DNA of 64,000 bases from Rosa chinensis (lineage: Eukaryota; Streptophyta; Magnoliopsida; Rosales; Rosaceae): the NCBI RefSeq assembly GCF_002994745.2, contig NC_037091.1, positions 13,578,501 to 13,642,500 on the forward strand, read 5' to 3'. The notes beneath the pieces were generated by a model. That model saw nothing but the letters and a program-made list of their open reading frames with translations, was not told the DNA's origin and made no database searches. Numbering within the stretch: the first letter of the stretch is position 1; each line of letters begins with the position of its first letter. Positions 28,770 to 46,670 of this stretch are shown in pieces. The translations under genes and the position numbers were made by a program.

Positions 28770-31700
28770 TTCTGCTACTCGGCCTAACATATTAGTTTGG
28801 GAACGACCTTTGTGTGGGTCAGAGAGGTACCCAGCATTAGCAAAATCAACCAAAACATTATTTGGGGTTTCAGTGTAGTGAGTGGCGCTTTCATCATCAA
28901 CATTTCCTTTCGGAATTACAGTTCTATCTGCGGCCCCTCTTGTCTCTCTGTAGGGAAAGAACAGTCCCAAGTCAATGGTTCCTTTTAGGTATCGAAAAAT
29001 GTTCTTGATACCATTCCAGTGACACTGCGTTGGTGCTGAGCTAAATCTAGCTGAGAATGCAATGTTTGGTTGAGTGCATTGGGCTAACTACAATAATGCA
29101 CCTCTTGCACTTAGATAGGGAATTTCAGTTCCCAGCACCTCTTCGTCATCTTCTTTTGGACGAAATGGATATTTCTTTGCATCCAAACTTCGACTGATCA
29201 TGGGAGTGCTAGCAGGATGCGCTTTGTCCATGTTAAATCGCTTGAGCATCTTTTGGACATACGCAGACTGGTGGATTAGTATTCCACAAACTCGGTGTTC
29301 TAGTTGAAGGCCTAGACAGAATCGAGTTTTGCCAAGATCTTTCATCTCAAATTCGGATTTCAAGTAGCTCGTGATTTCTCTTATTTCATCAAGAGTACCT
29401 ATTATGTTCATATCATCGACATATACAGCTACAATTGCAAATCTGGAACTTGTTTTCTTTATGAATACGCAGGGGCATAATTCATCGTTCTTATATCCCT
29501 TCCCAATCAAGTAGTTACATAGACAGGTATACCACATCCGCCCGGATTGTTTCAATCCGTAAAGTGAGCGTTTCAACCTAATTGCAAACGCACTCCATGG
29601 TTTAGAGTCACTTGATTTGGGTAATGTAAGGCCATCAGGCACTTTCATATATATCTCTGAATCAAGATCCCCATAGAGATATGCAGTAACCACATTCATG
29701 AGCTACATTTCCAGTCCTTTGGAAATTACCAAGCTAACTAGGTAGCGGAACGTTATAACGTCCATTACAAGAGAGAGTGTCTCCTCGTAGTCAATTCCAG
29801 GGGTTGTGAGAAACCTTGCGCCACAAGGCGAGCCTTGTACCTCAGGACTTCATTCTTCTCATTACGCTTTCTGACAAAGACCCATTTATATCCTACAGCC
29901 TTTACACTTAGTGGGGTTAGCACTACCAGACCAAATACCTGTCTCTTTACCAGAGAATCTAATTCTGCCTGGATTGCTTCTTTCCATTTAGGCTAATCTG
30001 CTCTTTGTTGACATTAATTCTGCAATAGAGCGTGGTTTGATATCATCGTGCTGTATGATTTCTTGAGCAATAGTGTATGCAAATACATCATCAATGTGTA
30101 TGGAAGATCTTTCGATCAACTCATACATACTCTCATAATCCATTGAGATTTCTTTGGTCTCTGAAATCATTTAAAACATCGGAGCGTCCTCCAGTTTTGA
30201 TTAATGGATATAACAATAATCAGAGACAATCTCATGAGAGGGATTCTCTACATTGATGATTAATGGATCGGTTTGTGCCTTACTCGCCCTCTTCTTCCTT
30301 GGATGATTGTCAGTCAAACCAAGTGGGCTCCCCCTCTTCCTTTGGGGAGCCACGGCCTCAACCACACCTCCACAAAGTGTGGTTGCAGCACCTCTATCTG
30401 CGGCGCTATCCCCTTGTTTTGGACTTTTAAATTTGCAAGCACATTTGCAGCTTGTATATGTTATCTCGTTACTTTTGCGATATCAGTAAACATATCAGGC
30501 ATTTAATCTGCTACGTTCTGAAGATCGATTATTCTTTTCACTTCACTTTCACATTGTGAAGTGCGGGGATCAAAATGAGACAGAGTGGGGACAAACCACG
30601 ACAATTCCTGTTGTTTTCTTGGAAAATCATTTTTCCTATCTCCCCCTAACAACGGGAAGACTGTCTCATCAAAGTGACAATTTGCAAATCTAGCGGTAAA
30701 GGGATCGCCTGTCAAGGGTTCTAAATAGTAGATAATTGTTGGAGATTCGTATCCAACATAAATACCTAATCATCTCTGAGGACCCATTTTTGTGCGCTGT
30801 GGGGCGCAATAGGCACATATAATGCACAACCAAATATGCGTAAGTGTGAAATGTTAGGCTCATATCCAGTTACCAACTGGTATGCAGAAAATGGTTGGCT
30901 AGCAGTGGGTCTGAAACGAATAAGTAAAGTTGCGTGCAATATTGCATAACCCCAGGTAGATATAGGCAAGTTGGTGTGCATAACCAGTGCCCTAGCCACC
31001 ATCTGTAGCCCTTTGATGGTAGCTTCTGCGAGACCACTTTGTGTATGCACATGGGGTATAGGATGCTCTACATCGATTGATTACACGCATTTTTATACGT
31101 GTAATTATATCTAAAATACTAGAATTAAGCTAATCCTCGAGTCAATTATTATATAATTAATTCTTTTTTATTTATTGTGTAGAAAATAAGCGGAGTTGCG
31201 GAAACGAGAGAAAATTGTACAAAAGTGGAGCAAATCGGAGTTTTCGACGAGGAGACGAAATTGTCGACACGGTCAACCATGGTCAATGCAAGTTTGAGAG
31301 AGAAACCTGACTAGTCCCTTGACAATATATATGGAAATATTCGAGATTGTGGAAGTGGAGAAGAAAGAAAAATAGAAAAGAAGAAGAAGAAAATTACAGA
31401 AAATAAAGAAAAGGTTTTGTATTAATTGATCATTAGCTTGATTATTTAATACCTCCAGCCATTAACATGCAGCAGTAGACCTTAGTTTAATTAAGCTTTA
31501 CACTTAATTAAGCTTTGGTTTCAATTGAGAAGTCTGCCGCCGTCACGTGCCCAAACCATTTCTTCCTTTCTTCTTGTCCACTCCCATACTGACACGTGGC
31601 AACCCTACTCCCTTCACTTTGGCCAATCGATCTCAGCCTTAGATGGTGATATATATATCTGCTATATATTTATGAGAGGAGGAGGAGAACGACATACCTA

Positions 31701-32979
31701 CAGCGGCAGCCGCACTACACTAAAACAGGGGGCAGCCTTTGGGCTACTCTCATTCTCTTCTCCCATCTTCTTCCTCCATTTTTCATTTCTATTTTTGTTA
31801 GTTTTCATTTTTCATCTTTTCTTTCTATTTTATTTTGAGATTTGAAGGATTTACTCATCCAAAGCTTCAAGGATTCTTCATCAAAGCCTTCTCTTCTACA
31901 AGATTCAAGATTTGGGTAATGGTAGGAGTTATAATTCAAGAGTAGTCATGTTGGTTTTCTAGCTAATTGTGGCTATCCTTATTTTCTCCTACACTTCTCT
32001 TTTCTTTTCTCTTTGAATTTTGTATCTTTGATGTTCATAATTATGAGTTGTGAGTAATTTCCTTGTTGGGGTTTAGGGTTGTGTCCCTAACCCAAATTTT
32101 GTGTAAAAGATGTTTAATTTAATGTAATGATGCAATTTTCATATGATGGATGCTTATATCTATTTTTGTTGGGTTAAAACGCATGTCTAGGAGCCTAGTC
32201 AACTCTAGGGTGTGTATTTTGAGCATGTCTAGGATGGAGTTAGAGGCTTGACCCCCTCTAATTTCTAAGCTAGAAACCTTCAATTTCGAATTCGAGGGGT
32301 TATAAGCATGGTGATTTACACATGTTGCGTGATTGCGCGGGCGGGTCCTTTAGTAGTCTAATTCCTCGATCTCTACGCCTCTTGATGTGAATTAGTGACC
32401 CTTGAACCGGCTCTAATTCATGTCAAGTGAGTTCCTACGGCCCTTGAACCGGAGTAGGAATACCATGAAAGGGAATTTCGGTCCTTGAGCCTTGAACCGC
32501 CTTGGATACGACTACCGCCAAAGTAGGGATTTGCATCCACATTATATTAGCTTCCGACACATAGAATTTGGGTGAATGAACCTCCCTAACACCCAACATT
32601 CCCATTTATATTGTTTACACTTTTATTAATTTATTTTCATTTTTATTAATTGCTTTACATTTCATTACATTTTGTTAATCTAAAATCAACTCTCAAAATA
32701 TTGAACTCCAACTCATTGTAAATATTTTTCACTAGGCTCTTAGTTTTGATTAGGCTTTGGTGAAAATCAAAGCCGAGCATTGCTAAGGCTTGGTGCCTTA
32801 GATTAACATTTTTATTTATTTTCTTTTTCTTTTCGTTGTTTGCTAAGTGTCTTTATTTCCGATTACCCAAGGATTGTGGGTTAGCCACTAATCTCGGTGG
32901 TACGATAAACTTTGGGCATAATATTTCCCTATCTTGACAATGATACGTACGCTTGTGTAAATGTGTATCAAGTCAATGG

Positions 32980-33051
32980 CGCCGTTGCCGGGGATCGAAC
33001 CCGGGTCACCCGCGTGACAGGCGGGAATACTTACCACTATACTACAACGGC
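32980..33051 (-). tRNA. tRNA-Asp (anticodon GTC), complete, embedded between inverted LTRs
   Basis: 72-nt cloverleaf on the minus strand: acceptor GCCGTTG pairs with CAACGGC, anticodon stem CCCGC/GCGGG, anticodon GTC (33016-33018), T-arm with GGTTCGATCC, discriminator G. TGG at 32977-32979 corresponds to a 3' CCA, which plant nuclear tRNA genes do not encode. This, and its place directly after an LTR spacer, indicate a cDNA copy of a tRNA primer and not an ordinary tRNA gene. Internal A and B box sequences are present, so transcription is possible but unproven. Confidence 0.8.
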
Positions 33052-33069
33052 TTACCACTATACTTACCA
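33052..33069. repeat. duplicated tRNA D-arm segment
   Basis: TTACCACTATAC, part of the tRNA-Asp complement just upstream (near 33031-33042), is repeated immediately after the tRNA 5' end and followed by TTACCA. This fits template slippage or switching at the junction of the two LTRs. Confidence 0.7.
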
Positions 33070-35201
33070 TTGACTTGGTTCATAAACTCTTCGCAAGCGT
33101 ACGAATCGCTGTCAAGTAAGGGAAGTAATTGGACCTTAGTTTATCGTACCTCAGGGATTAGGTGTTGGACCTAACCAAGATAATTGGCGGTAGGATACTA
33201 AAAGCACACAAGAAAAATAAAAAGTAAAATAAGACTATAAACAATCAAGGCACCAAGCCTTGGCAATACTCGGCTTAGCTCACACCAAGCCTATTCAAAG
33301 CCACTAACTTGTAGCCTCAAGATGGGTATACACAAATGAGTCGATGGATTTAATGTTTGAGAGTGGATTTGAACTTAACAAAAAGTAATAAAATGTAAAG
33401 CGATTAATAAAAATGCAAGGAAATTAAACTAGAAAAGCGTGAACAATATAATGGGAATGTCGGGTGCTAGGGAGGTTCTTTCACCCAAATCTCATGTGTC
33501 GGAAGCTAATCTAATGTAGATGCAAATTTCCTACTTTGGCGGTAGTCGTATCCAAGGCGGTTCAAGGCTCAAGGACCGAAATTCCCTTTCATGGTATTCC
33601 TACTCCGGTTCAAGGGCCGTAGGAACTCACTTGACATGAATTAGAGCCGGTTCAAGGGTCACTAATTCACATCAAGAGGCGTAGAGATCGAGGAATTAGA
33701 CTACTAAATGACCCGCCCGCGCAATCATGCAACGGGTGTAAATCACCATGCTTATAACCCCTCGAATACGAAATTGAAGGTTTCTAGCTTAGGAATTAGA
33801 GGGGGTCAAGCCTCTAATTCCATCCTAGACATGCTCAAAATACACACTCTGGAGTTGACTAGGCTCCTAGACATGCATTTTAACCCAACAAAAATTGATA
33901 TAAGCATCCATCATATGAAAATTGCATCATGACATTTAAATAGGCATCCTTTACATAAAATTTGGGCTAGGGCACACAACCCTAACCCCCAACAACAAAT
34001 CTACTCACTACCCATCAATATACATAATTTTAAGAGGAACAAAGTGAAGAGAAGTAGAAGTAACAAGAACAAGCCACAAATTGCTATAAAGCAATTATGA
34101 CTAGCCTTGATTTATGACTCCCCACTTTTACCCAAATTTAATGGTAATGAAATTCTTGATGCTTGGGCTTCCTCTTTGAAATTTGTGGAACTGATAAGAA
34201 GATGGAATTTTAGTGAGGTAGATCTTGGTGAAGAAGAAATTGGTGAGGTGAAGAAAATCTTGGTGAGGTGAAGAAAAGATGAGAAGGAAGAGATTTTGGT
34301 GAGGTGGGATGGATTTTGGTGAGGTGGGAAGAAAAATGGAGAAAGAGAGTTATGTGGTGGTTTGGTGCGGCTCAAAAGAAAAAGAAAAAAAATTGGAATG
34401 GGATCTCCCTCTGCGGCGGAATTGTGTATCTATATATATGCTCTCGGCTATCACGAAGGAAGAGAGAAGAATAGGGTTTTTGGACTTATGGACTGCCACA
34501 TGTCAAAACCAGATTGATTGAATAATGTAGGAGAATTTGATCACGTGCTGTGTTGGCTGCAACCTTAATTAACCTTGTGTTGCTGTGTGTCACATGCTCA
34601 TTGGTGGAGCTGATTCTCTTCATTCTGTTTGCACAGCCCACGTGCCTCCTTCTATAATTAAACAATTGTCTAATTAATTAAACATTTGTTTAATTAATTG
34701 AACATTGTTTAATTAATCCCTCTCACTATTATTCTGTATATTTTCTTTTCTCTCTCTTTTGCTCCGATCTTGAGGCACATCTGTCCAAATTATTTTAGGG
34801 TGATAGACTTCTATCTCCTCGCTCAAGTTGATCATGGTTGACTAATGTTGACTTTTTCGTCCTTTTGTCGATAATTCCCTTTAGCTCCAATTTCGCCTCA
34901 TTTTCTCACGATTTCCGTAACTCTGCTTATTTTCTACGAAATAAATAAAAATAGATTAATTACATAATAATTAACAAGGGGATTGGCTTATTTCTAGTGT
35001 TTTAGATACAATTAGACGCATATAAATGTGTATAATCATCGATCCCATTAGACATACAATAATCATCAAATTCTTTTGATGTAAACTCTCCAGCGTTATC
35101 AAGCCTTATAGACTTGATGAGGTGATCACAGTGGTGAGCCCTTAAATGTATATGTGCATACTGATAGATATTTGATCACCATAAGGTTTTGGCACTATCA
35201 G

Positions 35202-41757: not shown

Positions 41758-41925
41758 TATCCTCAAGAGAAACAATAATTGAGGAATATTTTCTTATCAT
41801 TTACTGTATGAAGATACAGATTTTATACAGAGTGCACAACTACACGATCCACAATTCTAGGCCTACAATCAAGCACTTATGTATCTAAACAATTACGACA
41901 GATTACACAAATTAACCAAATCAAC

Positions 41926-44900
41926 TCATTGACTCATTCTGATTCCTTCCTTTACTAACACAGCAGTAGCTCCTTCCTCAAGACTCCCCCTCAAGTTGGA
42001 GTGTATGTTAATTACATTCAACTTGCCAAGTAAAGCTTTAAACTGTGCTGCACTCACTGGTTTAGTAAACAGATCAGCCGGCTGCTCCTTGGTTCTAATG
42101 TGAGCTGTTTTGATCACTCCTCTTTGCACTTTCTCACGCACCACATGACAGTCAATCTCTATGTGCTTGGTGCGCTCATGAAACACCGGGTTCGAAGCTA
42201 TATGAATTGCAGCAAGGTTGTCACAATATAACTTAACTGGTTGCTTGTGATGTATGTTCAAATCACTCAATATGCTACGCAGCCAAGTTATTTCACAACA
42301 CACTGTCGCCATTGATCGATATTCTGCCTCAGCACTAGAGCGTGCCACAGTGCTTTGTTTCTTTGTCTTCCATGAAATAGGTGCATTTCCAAGGAGCACG
42401 CAATAACCTGACACAGACCTCCTCGTGTCTCTGCATCGAGCCCAATCAGCGTCGCAAAACGCTTTCAACTCTAATGAACCCGTGGAAGGCAGCAGAATTC
42501 CTTGACCTGGTGTTTGCTTGACATACCTCAAAACCTTGTGTGCTGCCTCAAGGTGTGGTTGTCGTGGTTTGTCCATAAACTGACTCAATATATGGACAGC
42601 GTAAACAAGATCTGGTCTTGTAATGGTCAGATATATGAGCCGCCCTACAAGCCTGCGATATTGGGAAGGATCACTTAACAAACTTCCATCTGCTAGTGTG
42701 AGTGATAAACCTTGCTCAACTGGGAAATGTGAGGGCTTGGCACCAAGGAAACCTGAGTCTTCAAGGATCTCCAAGGCATATATTCTTTGACATAATGCAA
42801 TTCCTTTCTTTGATCTCGCCACTTCTATTCCCAGAAAGTATTTAAGTTGCCCCATGTCTTTCAACTTAAAACAACTTGAAAGGAATTGTTTAGTCTTCAA
42901 AATGTCATCCAAGCTGTTCCCTGCCAGTATCACATCATCCACATAAACTAATAAAACTGTAAACCGTCCTTGACAGTTTCGGACGAACAGAGAGTAATCT
43001 GACCATGATTGGTGAAACCCGGCAGATTTGAGTGCACTTGAAAGTTTGATGAACCATTGTCGTGAGGCCTGCTTTAGGCCGTAAATTGATTTGTGTAATT
43101 TGCACACTCTTGTCTCCCCCTTTCGTCCGAAACCAGGAGGAAGCTGCATATAGACTTCTTCATAAAGATCACCATTCAAAAATGCATTGTTCACGTCGAG
43201 TTGGTGTAAGTGCCAACCCTTCATAGCTGCAAGGCTGAGAAGAACTCGTACTGTTGTTAACTTAGCAACAGGGGCAAATGTTTCCCTATAGTTCACGCCC
43301 TCAATCTGACTGTATCCCTTAGCGACCAATCGAGCCTTATATCTTTCAACAGACCCATCCGGGTTGAGTTTAAACTTGTAAACCCACTTGCAACCGATGG
43401 GTCGTTTGTTTGGTGGAAGGGAGACCAAACTCCAGGTATGATTAGACTGAAGAGCTTGAATCTCTTTGTGCATTGCCTCTCTCCATTGTGGACATTTAAC
43501 TGCCTGCGAAAATGAGGTTGGTTCTTTTTGTATGGTGAGTTTAGTGGTAAAAGCTCGATGGTTAGGGGAAAGTCTAGTATAAGACAATACATTAGAAAGA
43601 GAGTGGGCAGTACCTTGAGGAGCCTCGTTCGTTGAAGATGATTGTGCAGGCCGAGAGGGAAGAGCAGCTTCGACGTGGAAATCTTGAAGAAATGATGGTG
43701 TTTTGGTAGGCCTGCTAGAGCGACGTATTGGTGGTGATTGGGAAGGAGGCATAGGAGCAGAAGTAGTGGGCGGTGATGAAGGGATGACAGACTCTGATGA
43801 TGATTCCGTATTCAAAGGAATGATTGACTCGGATGATGTGTTAGGATTGGATGTTAGGTCAGTTGGAGGATTTATAGGAAGAGAATTTTGAGTGTCTGGT
43901 GAGATCTCATGATCAAAAGATGATGGAGCTATTTGTGGCAAGAAAATGGGATCGGGATTTGTAGAGTGTGAATGAGAAGCAGATTGAAAAGGAAAAGAAT
44001 CCTCATAAAACACTACATCACGTGAAACCAAGACCTTTTGTTTCTCTAAATCATAAACTCTATATCCCTTTTTACCGTGGGGATAACCCAAGAAAATACA
44101 CTTGGTGGAACGGGCATCAAATTTTGATGGTTTGTGAGGGTGTGTGGACGCAAAACACAAACATCCAAATACCCGTAGATGTAGGTAGGTGGGTGCCTTG
44201 TGAAACAACATTTCAAAAGGTGTTTTGCCTTTGAGAATTGGTGTGGGTGTCCGATTTATGAGATAAGCAGAGGTAAGAATAGCATCTCCCCAAAAAGGTT
44301 TTGGTAAATGAGCTTGGAAAAGAAGAGCGTGAGCAACATTGAGCAAATGTCTATGCTTACGCTCTGCCACACCATTTTGCTGTGGTGTGTTGACACAACT
44401 GGTTTGGTGGATTATCCCTTTTGACGCATAAAAATGGTCTATTTTAAACTCGGGACCATTGTCACTTCGCACAATCTTGACTGTTTTACCAAATTGATTT
44501 TCAACTAGTTGAATGAAGTTGACTAGGAGACTGCGTGCTTCTGACTTGTGTTTCATTAAATACACCCAAGTGCACCTAGTGTGATCGTCAACTATGGTGA
44601 GGAAATATTGTGCACCAGTGTATGTAGGAATATGGTACCCACCCCAAATATCAACATGAATTAATTCAAAAGGAGAGTCACTAGAATTAACATGCAAAGG
44701 AAAAGGCATTCTGGTTTGTTTAGCTAGAGGACATACAGAACAGTTGCTTGTATCACAAGCCTTATTTTCAAGAAAGGGAAATGATACAGAAACTTTGCTC
44801 GAAGGGTGACCGAGCCTTTGGTGCCAAAAACTTTGAGTGCGACTATGAACGGCATGACATGTTCCTTTCTTGATCAAGTCAAGGCAGTAGAGTCCTTCCC

Positions 44901-45096
44901 TCTCAGTTCCCGTCCCAATCATCCTCCCTGATCGTAGGTCCTGTATGAAACAAATTTGGTTGAGAAATATGGTAAGGTAAAAGGAGTCATGAGCCAATTT
45001 ACTAATAGAGATCAGGTTCAAATAAAAGAATGGGACACAAAGAACATTATGGAGAACAAAATGAGGAGAGAAAACGACTTTGCCAATATGCGTGAC
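41926..45096 (-). CDS. copia pol: integrase, reverse transcriptase, RNase H
   Basis: In frame with gag after the single stop; first internal Met at 45021 gives 1031 residues. Order: GAG-pre-integrase region (HQRLGHPSSKV), integrase core (VDDHTRCTWVYLMKHKSEA, RSDNGPEF, TPQQNGVAERKHR), long Ser/Pro-rich linker, reverse transcriptase (WVYKFKLNPDGSVERYKARL, LDVNNAFLNG, LLVYVDDVILAGN), RNase H (CDADWARC, SSAEAEYRSMA) and ADLFTKPVS at the C-terminus. The frame ends inside the 3' LTR, as is common in short-LTR copia elements. Integrase, RT and RNase H motifs all look intact. Confidence 0.93.
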   Translation of the reverse strand, partial: VTHIGKVVFSPHFVLHNVLCVPFFYLNLISISKLAHDSFYLTIFLNQICFIQDLRSGRMIGTGTEREGLYCLDLIKKGTCHAVHSRTQSFWHQRLGHPSSKVSVSFPFLENKACDTSNCSVCPLAKQTRMPFPLHVNSSDSPFELIHVDIWGGYHIPTYTGAQYFLTIVDDHTRCTWVYLMKHKSEARSLLVNFIQLVENQFGKTVKIVRSDNGPEFKIDHFYASKGIIHQTSCVNTPQQNGVAERKHRHLLNVAHALLFQAHLPKPFWGDAILTSAYLINRTPTPILKGKTPFEMLFHKAPTYLHLRVFGCLCFASTHPHKPSKFDARSTKCIFLGYPHGKKGYRVYDLEKQKVLVSRDVVFYEDSFPFQSASHSHSTNPDPIFLPQIAPSSFDHEISPDTQNSLPINPPTDLTSNPNTSSESIIPLNTESSSESVIPSSPPTTSAPMPPSQSPPIRRSSRPTKTPSFLQDFHVEAALPSRPAQSSSTNEAPQGTAHSLSNVLSYTRLSPNHRAFTTKLTIQKEPTSFSQAVKCPQWREAMHKEIQALQSNHTWSLVSLPPNKRPIGCKWVYKFKLNPDGSVERYKARLVAKGYSQIEGVNYRETFAPVAKLTTVRVLLSLAAMKGWHLHQLDVNNAFLNGDLYEEVYMQLPPGFGRKGETRVCKLHKSIYGLKQASRQWFIKLSSALKSAGFHQSWSDYSLFVRNCQGRFTVLLVYVDDVILAGNSLDDILKTKQFLSSCFKLKDMGQLKYFLGIEVARSKKGIALCQRIYALEILEDSGFLGAKPSHFPVEQGLSLTLADGSLLSDPSQYRRLVGRLIYLTITRPDLVYAVHILSQFMDKPRQPHLEAAHKVLRYVKQTPGQGILLPSTGSLELKAFCDADWARCRDTRRSVSGYCVLLGNAPISWKTKKQSTVARSSAEAEYRSMATVCCEITWLRSILSDLNIHHKQPVKLYCDNLAAIHIASNPVFHERTKHIEIDCHVVREKVQRGVIKTAHIRTKEQPADLFTKPVSAAQFKALLGKLNVINIHSNLRGSLEEGATAVLVKEGIRMSQ

Positions 45097-46413
45097 TCAT
45101 GTGGTAGTTCCATCTGGTAATTTAACGAAACGATTGGCAACAGATTTAAATGATGTACGGAGACTGGTGTGACAGACTATGTGGTCACTAGCTCCACTAT
45201 CTAGTATCCATATGGTTTCTTTACCACTTTGAGAGAGGTGCAATGCTTTACCTGAGAGTTCCTCATAATTGGGAACATTACCAACTTGATTAACAGTAGT
45301 GATACCAGCCTTGTTTTTGTGGATGAGACCCAGCAATTGTTGGCAATCTTCCTGAGAGAAGGGGAAATTCATGGCAGTCTCCATCTTGTCATTGAATGAG
45401 ACCGCATTGTTTGCCTTAGAGCTTCCTTGACCCTCTCCCATGATAGCCTTCCTTCTTCGACAATATTCAAAGGTATGATATCTACCATTGCAGAAAGTGC
45501 ATTTGAGATGTGCACGACAATTCTTGGTAGAATGATTTGTCTTGTTACACTTCTCACACTTCACTGCTCCTTCTCCATCTTCATGTTCACGGTTGCCTCT
45601 CCTCACGGCAAACGCAGTGGCTTCTGGCTGTGCCAAGGCTTTTCCGGTGGACAACTCAGCTTGCTTCTCGTGGCGGAGTGCCATTGAATAAGCCTTGCTT
45701 ACTGTAGGAAAAGGGTCCATGTTCACTACGCTGCTCCTGATTGTTGCATAGTTGTCGTTGAGGCCCATTAAGAATTTCATGGTCTTCTGCGTGTCCATGT
45801 AAGCCTTAATTTCCTTAGAAGCTTCACAAATGCAGGGAGTAATTTCGCATAGCATGTCCTTCTCATCCCATAAGCTTTTGAGTTTGGTAAAGAAAGAAGT
45901 AGCAGAACTTGTTCCTTGCTCACAATCATGAATGGCATTTTCGATATGGAACAGCTGCACTGTGTTAGTGTGAGAAAATCTCTCCTGTAACTCTTGCCAC
46001 ATACCTCTTGCAGTCTTGCAGTGGATGACGCTGCTGGATATTTCCTTCGACATAGAACCCAGCAGCCAAGTTTTAACCAATGTGTTGCAACGATCCCATT
46101 GTAATTGTTCTTCAACTCTCTGGGTTGATCTTTGAATGGTTCCATTGATGAAACCCTTTTTGTTTTTAATCATAAGAGCCATGCTCATAGACTGAGCCCA
46201 AGTGGTGTAATTGTCTTCCACTAAGGGCTGTGCCACGAGAACTGCTCCAGGCTGATCTGAGTGATGAATGAACAAAGGGTGATTGGAATTTTCCCATGGT
46301 TCTGGCATCTTCAGCGTAGTCGAAGTTTTGCCTTGTTCAATGACTTGGCGTTCTTCGTCCCCTGGCATGAAGGCTTTGATTTGAAAATTCTGATATGGTG
46401 TGGTTGTTCTCAC
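45097..46413 (-). CDS. copia gag and start of protease (ends at a premature TGA)
   Basis: 438 residues. Gag (UBN2-type) domain at about residues 50-250, then two zinc knuckles of the form C-x2-C-x4-H-x4-C (CEKCNKTNHSTKNC and CTFCNGRYHTFEYC), then the protease active site WILDSGASDHI near the end. The TGA at 45097-45099 interrupts the polyprotein inside the protease. The same frame continues directly into the pol part, so this is a single nonsense change and not a designed gag/pol boundary. Confidence 0.9.
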   Translation of the reverse strand: MRTTTPYQNFQIKAFMPGDEERQVIEQGKTSTTLKMPEPWENSNHPLFIHHSDQPGAVLVAQPLVEDNYTTWAQSMSMALMIKNKKGFINGTIQRSTQRVEEQLQWDRCNTLVKTWLLGSMSKEISSSVIHCKTARGMWQELQERFSHTNTVQLFHIENAIHDCEQGTSSATSFFTKLKSLWDEKDMLCEITPCICEASKEIKAYMDTQKTMKFLMGLNDNYATIRSSVVNMDPFPTVSKAYSMALRHEKQAELSTGKALAQPEATAFAVRRGNREHEDGEGAVKCEKCNKTNHSTKNCRAHLKCTFCNGRYHTFEYCRRRKAIMGEGQGSSKANNAVSFNDKMETAMNFPFSQEDCQQLLGLIHKNKAGITTVNQVGNVPNYEELSGKALHLSQSGKETIWILDSGASDHIVCHTSLRTSFKSVANRFVKLPDGTTT

Positions 46414-46670
46414 GTTTTAGGTCTCAGATCATGCTTTGATACCATCAAGAGAAACAATAATTGAGGAATATTTTCTTATCATTTACTATATGAAGATACA
46501 GATTTTATACAGAGTGCACAACTACACGATCCACAATTCTAGGCCTACAATCAAGCACTTATGTATCTAAACAATTATGACAGATTACACAAATTAACCA
46601 AATCAACTCATTGACTCATTCTGATTCCTTCCTTTACTAACGCAGTAGTAGCTCCTTCCTCAAGATATCC

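Follow-up and report, generated by a model that had tools for sequence, protein, structure and literature searches.

The insertion described here occupies positions 31078-35038 of a 64,000-nucleotide stretch of DNA (hereafter the window), which corresponds to C4:13578501-13642500 of assembly G000 (515 Mb in 53 contigs). Two long terminal repeats (LTRs), designated LTR(a) and LTR(b), lie in opposite orientation with a copied transfer RNA between them, in the order LTR(a), AGTCAA, the complement of a tRNA-Asp with its 3' CCA, 18 nt of additional sequence, TTGACT and the inverted LTR(b) (Table 1). An earlier reading of the sequence alone (the sequence-only reading) had described this order, which holds apart from the 18 nt between the 5' end of the tRNA and the inverted spacer, and the perfect TCGAT duplication and the TGATTA...TAATCA termini were found as it had stated. 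The arms are inverted, as in the palindrome that it had proposed, but the palindrome is imperfect and its arms belong to different LTR subfamilies. Likewise, the tRNA is complete and includes the CCA, but the complement, given there as 72 nt, is 75 nt long (72 plus CCA); 74 of the 75 positions are identical to the tRNA-Asp genes and the other copies, the single substitution being at nt 2 of the tRNA. The LTR-tRNA-LTR structure itself is confirmed.

The stretch between the LTRs amounts to only 105 nt (32971-33075), taken up by spacer, tRNA and join, and holds no gag or pol coding region. The LTRs face each other with their unique 5' (U5) ends, whereas those of a standard element are direct repeats; a primer binding site (PBS) is present between them, and the internal region and polypurine tract (PPT) of a standard element are absent. 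Solo LTRs, terminal-repeat retrotransposons in miniature and large retrotransposon derivatives, which are defined by single or direct LTRs, do not accommodate the element either. The termini, the TCGAT duplication and the in-frame empty site are those of an integrase-mediated insertion. When the flanks are joined with one TCGAT, a minus-strand frame is open for about 145 codons through the join. The insertion is a single unit inside the relic of a copia-type integrase, with a clean empty site.

Table 1. Features of the insertion and its flanks, in positions of the window unless a contig is named.
Feature	Position	Strand	Remarks
Left flank, copia-type integrase, adjoining SH3-like domain	30772..31077	-	PF25597, E=1.8e-5, 25 bits, below the cut-off of 27
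Target-site duplication TCGAT, left copy	31073..31077	.	Empty site leaves a continuous copia integrase frame
LTR(a), TGATTA...GTATCA, 1893 bp	31078..32970	+	U3 end outermost
AGTCAA spacer, U5/PBS boundary	32971..32976	+	Identical in the ordinary copies compared
tRNA-Asp primer binding site, 18 nt, TGGCGCCGTTGCCGGGGA	32977..32994	+	
Complete tRNA-Asp(GTC) with 3' CCA	32977..33051	- (complement on +)	ARAGORN and Rfam RF00005, 65 bits
Apparent templated insertion, TTACCACTATAC and TTACCA, 18 nt	33052..33069	.	Readable as two D-arm re-copies
Inverted spacer TTGACT	33070..33075	-	
LTR(b), inverted, 1963 bp (...TATAATCA)	33076..35038	-	U3 end outermost; subfamily other than that of LTR(a)
Target-site duplication TCGAT, right copy	35039..35043	.	
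Right flank, part of integrase core (rve)	35044..35172	-	PF00665, E=0.011, 16 bits, cut-off 33 (weak); same frame as the left flank
Candidate initiator-Met read-throughs with CCA	G000 C7:13845501, C5:16868754, C6:53018272, C7:59867181		

When the arms were aligned with each other, LTR(a) and LTR(b) matched at 78.7% over 211 bp at the edge of the unique 3' region (U3) and at 82% over 1106 bp in the repeat region (R) and U5, and the approximately 620 bp of intervening U3 gave no alignment. Per 100-bp segment, identities were 0.31-0.56 in mid-U3, 0.89-1.00 in R and 0.60-0.72 in U5. Since the arms belong to different subfamilies, with unrelated U3, shared R and different U5, two molecules must have been joined, and this strongly indicates that molecules of both subfamilies came together in a single particle or nucleus. 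The sequence-only reading had asked for the autonomous element that shares this LTR. The U3 of LTR(a) recurs as a same-strand pair at C6:43142938 and C6:43151740 (8.8 kb apart, 89-90%), and an LTR(a)-type LTR at locus L024 adjoins an ordinary primer site; LTR(b) was placed by U5 and R only, and its type of end, AACCAAGTCAATGG, precedes primer sites elsewhere in the genome. Compared with L024, LTR(a) shows identities of 0.97-0.99 at positions 31278-31677 and 0.74-0.89 in the 400 bp that follow; R reaches 0.83-0.98 and the final 200 bp 0.96-0.97. Gene conversion between the arms of the window element was considered for the similarity in R and rejected, as the same R module is carried by L024, L033, L034, L035 and L031b, at 0.81-1.00. 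Modular recombination of LTRs around R is suggested. In the central part of the LTR, a module of about 600 bp (32078-32677 and its inverted counterpart), with several CCTTGAACCG repeats, was 0.89-1.00 identical between subfamilies that differ in U3 and U5; L031a and L045 carry a central module of another type.

None of the 12 tRNA-Asp genes that were read has TGG/CCA before the acceptor stem. Since the CCA is present in the copy and absent from these genes, the template was a mature tRNA. Followed by eye from LTR(a), the join can be read in three steps: from the tRNA 5' end into the D-arm (TTACCACTATAC), with a shared C, or AC before the substitution; into the D-arm again (TTACCA), with shared ATAC; and into the other element at CCA/TTGACT, with shared CCA. 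The last CCA of 33052-33069 fits the acceptor, or the second PBS-spacer, as well as it fits the D-arm. In this form the join reads as an iterative templated insertion.

From this anatomy, the element is probably an integrated aberrant product of reverse transcription, formed when a plus strand was over-extended, switched onto another plus-strand LTR DNA and was integrated by two U3 ends. The plus-strand strong-stop DNA of element a (U3-R-U5-spacer-PBS) would have overrun the 18-nt stop before A58 of its tRNA-Asp primer and copied the primer through to the tRNA 5' end. The over-extended 3' end would be unable to pair properly with the minus strand for second strand transfer; two further rounds of extension on the tRNA D-arm may have followed and then, at CCA/TTGACT, a switch onto the plus-strand LTR DNA of another element, b, which was presumably packaged together with a. 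Extension to the 5' end of that strand, the PPT-defined U3 terminus, would have left a linear DNA terminated by U3 on either side, to be integrated with the normal 5-bp duplication. Read-through, switch and the use of two U3 ends had been proposed in the sequence-only reading and fit both the anatomy and the clean empty site; what we have amended is the switch, which apparently proceeded in about three steps and involved a templated insertion, and the origin of the second LTR in another subfamily. In the retroviral scheme, genomic RNA does not start with U3. Plus-strand DNA is favoured as the acceptor for this reason, and also because the joins at L036, L041 and L075 include an inverted primer site and leader. 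We infer the order of the steps and the co-packaging from features that can be seen directly, namely the structure, the duplication, the CCA, the heterotypic arms and the recurrence with different joins; the enzyme would have been reverse transcriptase or the host's DNA polymerase theta (Pol theta), microhomology may have had a role, and any reason why tRNA-Asp is read through would be conjectural. The plus strand of human immunodeficiency virus (HIV) normally stops after 18 nt, before the N1-methyladenosine at position 58 (m1A58), and copying continues to the 5' end of a primer that lacks the modification; transfer is said to be carried out by the shorter strong-stop products alone (PMC13191261).

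To assess how often a primer site continues into the tRNA, we searched the genome with a pattern of the primer site plus 15 nt more of the tRNA complement, allowing at most 3 mismatches. The pattern needs about 33 nt of tRNA complement and covers over-extensions of that length or more. It yielded 64 matches and the reversed-pattern control yielded 0, which together with the 75-nt tRNA match in the window excludes chance. Among the matches, 22 look like tRNA genes (12 read, 10 judged by the missing TGG), 9 are extra copies (8 from a 794-bp array on C8 and 1 tandem unit at L067/L068) and 33 are distinct loci with a primer site that continues into the tRNA. Ten of these loci belong to the window family (family 1; spacer AGTCAA or a variant) and 19 to a second family (spacer ATTTT), while the 4 other or uncertain ones (L071, L072, L076 and L077) are counted without an upstream LTR shown. 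The sequence downstream of the tRNA is different at each of the 33 loci, and we therefore take each as an over-extension of its own with its own acceptor, as a mismatch between the over-run end and the minus strand would explain. The proposal of a recurring tRNA-carrying type is supported by these loci, 7 of which lead into an inverted LTR.

The end points of the copies were compiled for 32 of the 33 loci, with L038 left out and with the window element and L037 counted short, each having a substitution near the end. The copy stops no more than 6 nt from the 5' end of the tRNA in 17 cases, including 7 in which it stops precisely at nt 1, and 11 of the other 15 end in nt 10-25, the D-arm. Read-through loci make up 8 of the 100 window-family primer sites listed out of 167. 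As a control with another primer, a 34-nt initiator-Met pattern gave 14 matches, of which 4 have TGG and are candidate read-throughs (Table 1) and 10 lack it, as expected of tRNA genes. It is thus not certain that read-through is confined to tRNA-Asp, and other primers may be affected too. At L052-L060 (G000 C8:556989-563373), one second-family read-through event is present in nine head-to-tail copies with a period of 794 bp, an apparent satellite-like amplification of an LTR end and its tRNA copy. L067/L068 (G000 C2:78194152-78194257) contain two consecutive units of primer site and 49 nt of tRNA complement, with a return to the U5 end and then a normal primer site, indicative of over-extension in tandem or repeated over-extension.

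The 7 loci at which an inverted LTR follows the tRNA are the window element, L031, L036, L041, L045, L061 and L075. This is a lower bound, as the inverted arm was sought over about 5 kb at 8 loci, 1.5 kb at 16 and 0.5 kb at 9. Both L041 and L075 have the full 75 nt, an inverted leader (157 nt and 118 nt, respectively) and an inverted primer site; the arms are 90-91% alike at L041, which has the duplication ATATG, and 93.7% alike over 1515 bp at L075, where AATTT is present on either side when one extra base is tolerated. At L036, an inverted leader of 75 nt accompanies the inverted primer site, and one of the arms is without a recognisable outer part. A further palindrome, L021, has the ordinary 18-nt site only, arms 97.9% alike over 3564 bp and the duplication GAGAG. 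If the class is defined by a tRNA complement between inverted LTRs, by U3 at either end and by a target-site duplication, the window element and L041 belong to it, L075 does so with one extra base and L021 without the tRNA extension, while L031, L036, L045 and L061 are incomplete, embedded or have ends that were not reached. The three perfect 5-bp duplications (window, L041 and L021) and the fourth with its extra base suggest that integrase can accept two U3 ends in the germ line. The arms of L045 (94.9% alike) and L031 extend past U3 into internal sequence, from which L031 then returns to leader, and these two palindromes belong to larger structures. The window and L031 palindromes are unlikely to share a common origin: the joins are alike, but the U3 of both arms and the R of arm a differ. 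Palindromes were found at 4 of 10 read-through loci versus 1 of 20 other family-1 loci (Fisher p 0.03), a comparison on which we do not rely since the loci were chosen by similarity and include some local duplicates.

At other loci, the copied tRNA is found inside elements with LTRs in direct orientation. L032 has the full tRNA complement between direct LTRs with 99.7% identity in the 749 bp seen; in L034, a 55-nt part of the tRNA lies between direct LTRs that are 100% alike over 1189 bp. From L033, with a full tRNA copy, a second LTR in direct orientation (95%) follows about 0.8 kb on and has its own ordinary primer site (L019); L033/L019 (G000 C1:57391000-57397000) is a compound element. At L035, L049, L062, L064, L067 and L074, the sequence goes back to the U5 end or the primer-site stretch after the tRNA. 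The sequence-only reading had held that an ordinary element with the full tRNA complement in its internal region would speak against it. Such an arrangement does occur at L032, and in part at L034, but we do not consider it a refutation, since no two of the 33 loci have the same sequence following the tRNA; L032 and L034 appear to be alternative results of such an over-extension.

An automatic reading of the joins was obtained for the 13 of 33 loci with an acceptor aligned at the join. These share 0-4 nt, with a mean of 1.3 as compared to 0.78 at random (P ~0.06); 5 share none, 2-4 nt are shared at L032, L041, L061, L064 and L072, and the join of L021 shares GGGA. A general microhomology rule was considered on 13 hand-picked joins, a selected set with a mean of 2.7, or 2.3 with L045 and L065 set to 0, and was abandoned in view of the automatic mean.

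Several observations weigh against the formation pathway proposed above. All evidence consists of assembled genome sequence. At L045 and L031, where an arm passes U3 into internal sequence, the acceptor was not a simple strong-stop DNA. Clearly heterotypic arms are seen at the window element and L031 only, and the second donor of the window element is indicated by U5 and R matches and AACCAAGTCAATGG sites only. Reading through the whole primer, put forward in the sequence-only reading as the route to the palindrome, fits the window element, but L021 shows that a palindrome does not require it. By the rule reported for HIV, full copies should be dead ends (PMC13191261), yet L032 and L034 look whole. 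Finally, microhomology at the joins is not secure as a general rule, although the pathway does not rest on it. The arms of L021, L045 and L075 are 94-98% alike and compatible with a snap-back on one strand, in which the over-extended strand primes itself and the hairpin is later opened into a palindrome. The strand around the window join also folds better than shuffled sequences (z -3.4), an effect that the palindrome itself produces. The unrelated U3 and different U5 of the window arms are impossible by self-copying, which refutes a snap-back for the window element, and the join in the acceptor stem that it predicts (tRNA end, GCCA, inverted spacer) was not seen at the window element, L031, L036, L041, L045 or L075. 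As a general explanation we consider it improbable.

It is more conceivable, though still doubtful, that the joins were made by host Pol theta end joining rather than by reverse transcriptase. Iterative templated insertion, as in the 18 nt of the window join, is a hallmark of Pol theta (PMC12426944), alternative end joining (alt-EJ) has been reported as necessary for second-strand transfer of LTR retrotransposons (PMC12786077, PMC12426944), and the short identities at L032, L041, L061, L064, L072 and L021 would fit. Similar switches are, however, made by reverse transcriptase, the overall excess of microhomology is not secure, and end points near the tRNA 5' end followed by inverted leader or PBS are natural for template run-off, while being compatible with end joining too. 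Ordinary rearrangement, by two opposite LTR insertions, or by duplication in inverted orientation, next to a genuine tRNA-Asp gene, is known to yield inverted LTR pairs through nesting and recombination, but here it would have to produce one shared 5-bp outer duplication, an in-frame empty site and a CCA directly adjoining the spacer, as well as 33 read-through loci, and is very unlikely. Equally unlikely is a fold-back chimera of the assembly: palindromes are a known hazard of assembly, but such chimeras carry identical arms, whereas those of the window element are heterotypic, and the duplications at four palindromes go with differing joins. Inverted arms and a duplication might also lead automatic annotation to a foldback or terminal inverted repeat (TIR) DNA transposon with long inverted termini, an assignment that we find scarcely credible since the termini are shared with retroelement LTRs: LTR(a) is also found at the ends of ordinary elements that have a primer site, and elements with direct repeats are delimited by related LTRs.

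The tRNA-Asp PBS of the window family fits non-chromovirus Ty3/gypsy elements (OTA clade: Athila/Tat), which use tRNA-Asp among other primers (PMC6317226). Five open reading frames (ORFs) of at least 200 aa are present in L031-L038; a Pfam scan of the four from L031-L034 gave nothing above the cut-off, and membership in Athila or Tat is therefore not claimed. The fifth, in L038, is a hAT transposase by Pfam. Elsewhere in the window, two abutting long ORFs on the minus strand at 41926-46416 contain copia-type gag and pol domains (RVT_2, rve), and 221-bp repeats that are 98% alike are located around them, at 41763-41983 and 46445-46665.

Together, these loci provide a natural record of strong-stop failure on the tRNA primer, in which the outcome can be read per event and the acceptor for some. 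The joins also make a role of host Pol theta in plant second-strand transfer testable. Annotation might misidentify the palindromes as TIR transposons, and hairpin RNA could arise from them. As a speculation in which we place little confidence, the palindromes may be a recurrent product class of this genome rather than the accident of a single element: tRNA-Asp-primed elements would often overrun A58, and host end joining would turn the strands that no longer fit into read-through elements and into palindromes with two U3 ends. If this is true, a transcript started in either U3 would fold into a long R-U5 hairpin closed by a tRNA loop, and would thereby be a natural supply of small RNAs that silence the two parent subfamilies simultaneously.

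Among the matches listed from the open-licence PubMed Central literature (titles and abstract openings), no integrated LTR palindrome with a copied tRNA was recognised. Individual parts of the anatomy have counterparts. Over-extended strong-stop DNA of HIV-1, on unmodified tRNA-Lys3 or in TRMT6-TRMT61A mutant cells, passes A58 and reaches the tRNA 5' end with partial stops inside the tRNA, but it is a product of in vitro reactions or mutant cells, whereas here full tRNA-Asp copies are integrated in a plant-like genome (PMC13191261). The murine leukemia virus circle of Colicelli and Goff (1986) had a reverse-transcribed tRNA-Gly between its terminal repeats, but was one cloned circle with no inverted LTRs or integrated palindrome described in the available account (PMC12220202). 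In hairpin-induced tRNA-mediated recombination of HIV-1, 63-65 nt of tRNA, in one case tRNA-Asp, were inserted at the template switch, in an experimental setting, inside nef and without an LTR palindrome as far as that account goes (PMC12220202). The complex LTR insertions of Triticeae (Sabot and Schulman 2007) likewise fuse two parents by abnormal switching and have 5-bp duplications, but place an internal LTR between two cores, and the available text is without the terms inverted, palindrom, tRNA and PBS (PMC1950507). Second-strand synthesis by alt-EJ (Yang et al. 2023) shares the microhomology-based second strand transfer, but concerns circles of fly and mouse elements, with no tRNA copies or palindromes described in the excerpts at hand (PMC12786077, PMC12426944). 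Aberrant products of LTR retrotransposons are thus known, and the new part is a definite and recurring palindromic anatomy that includes the copied primer.

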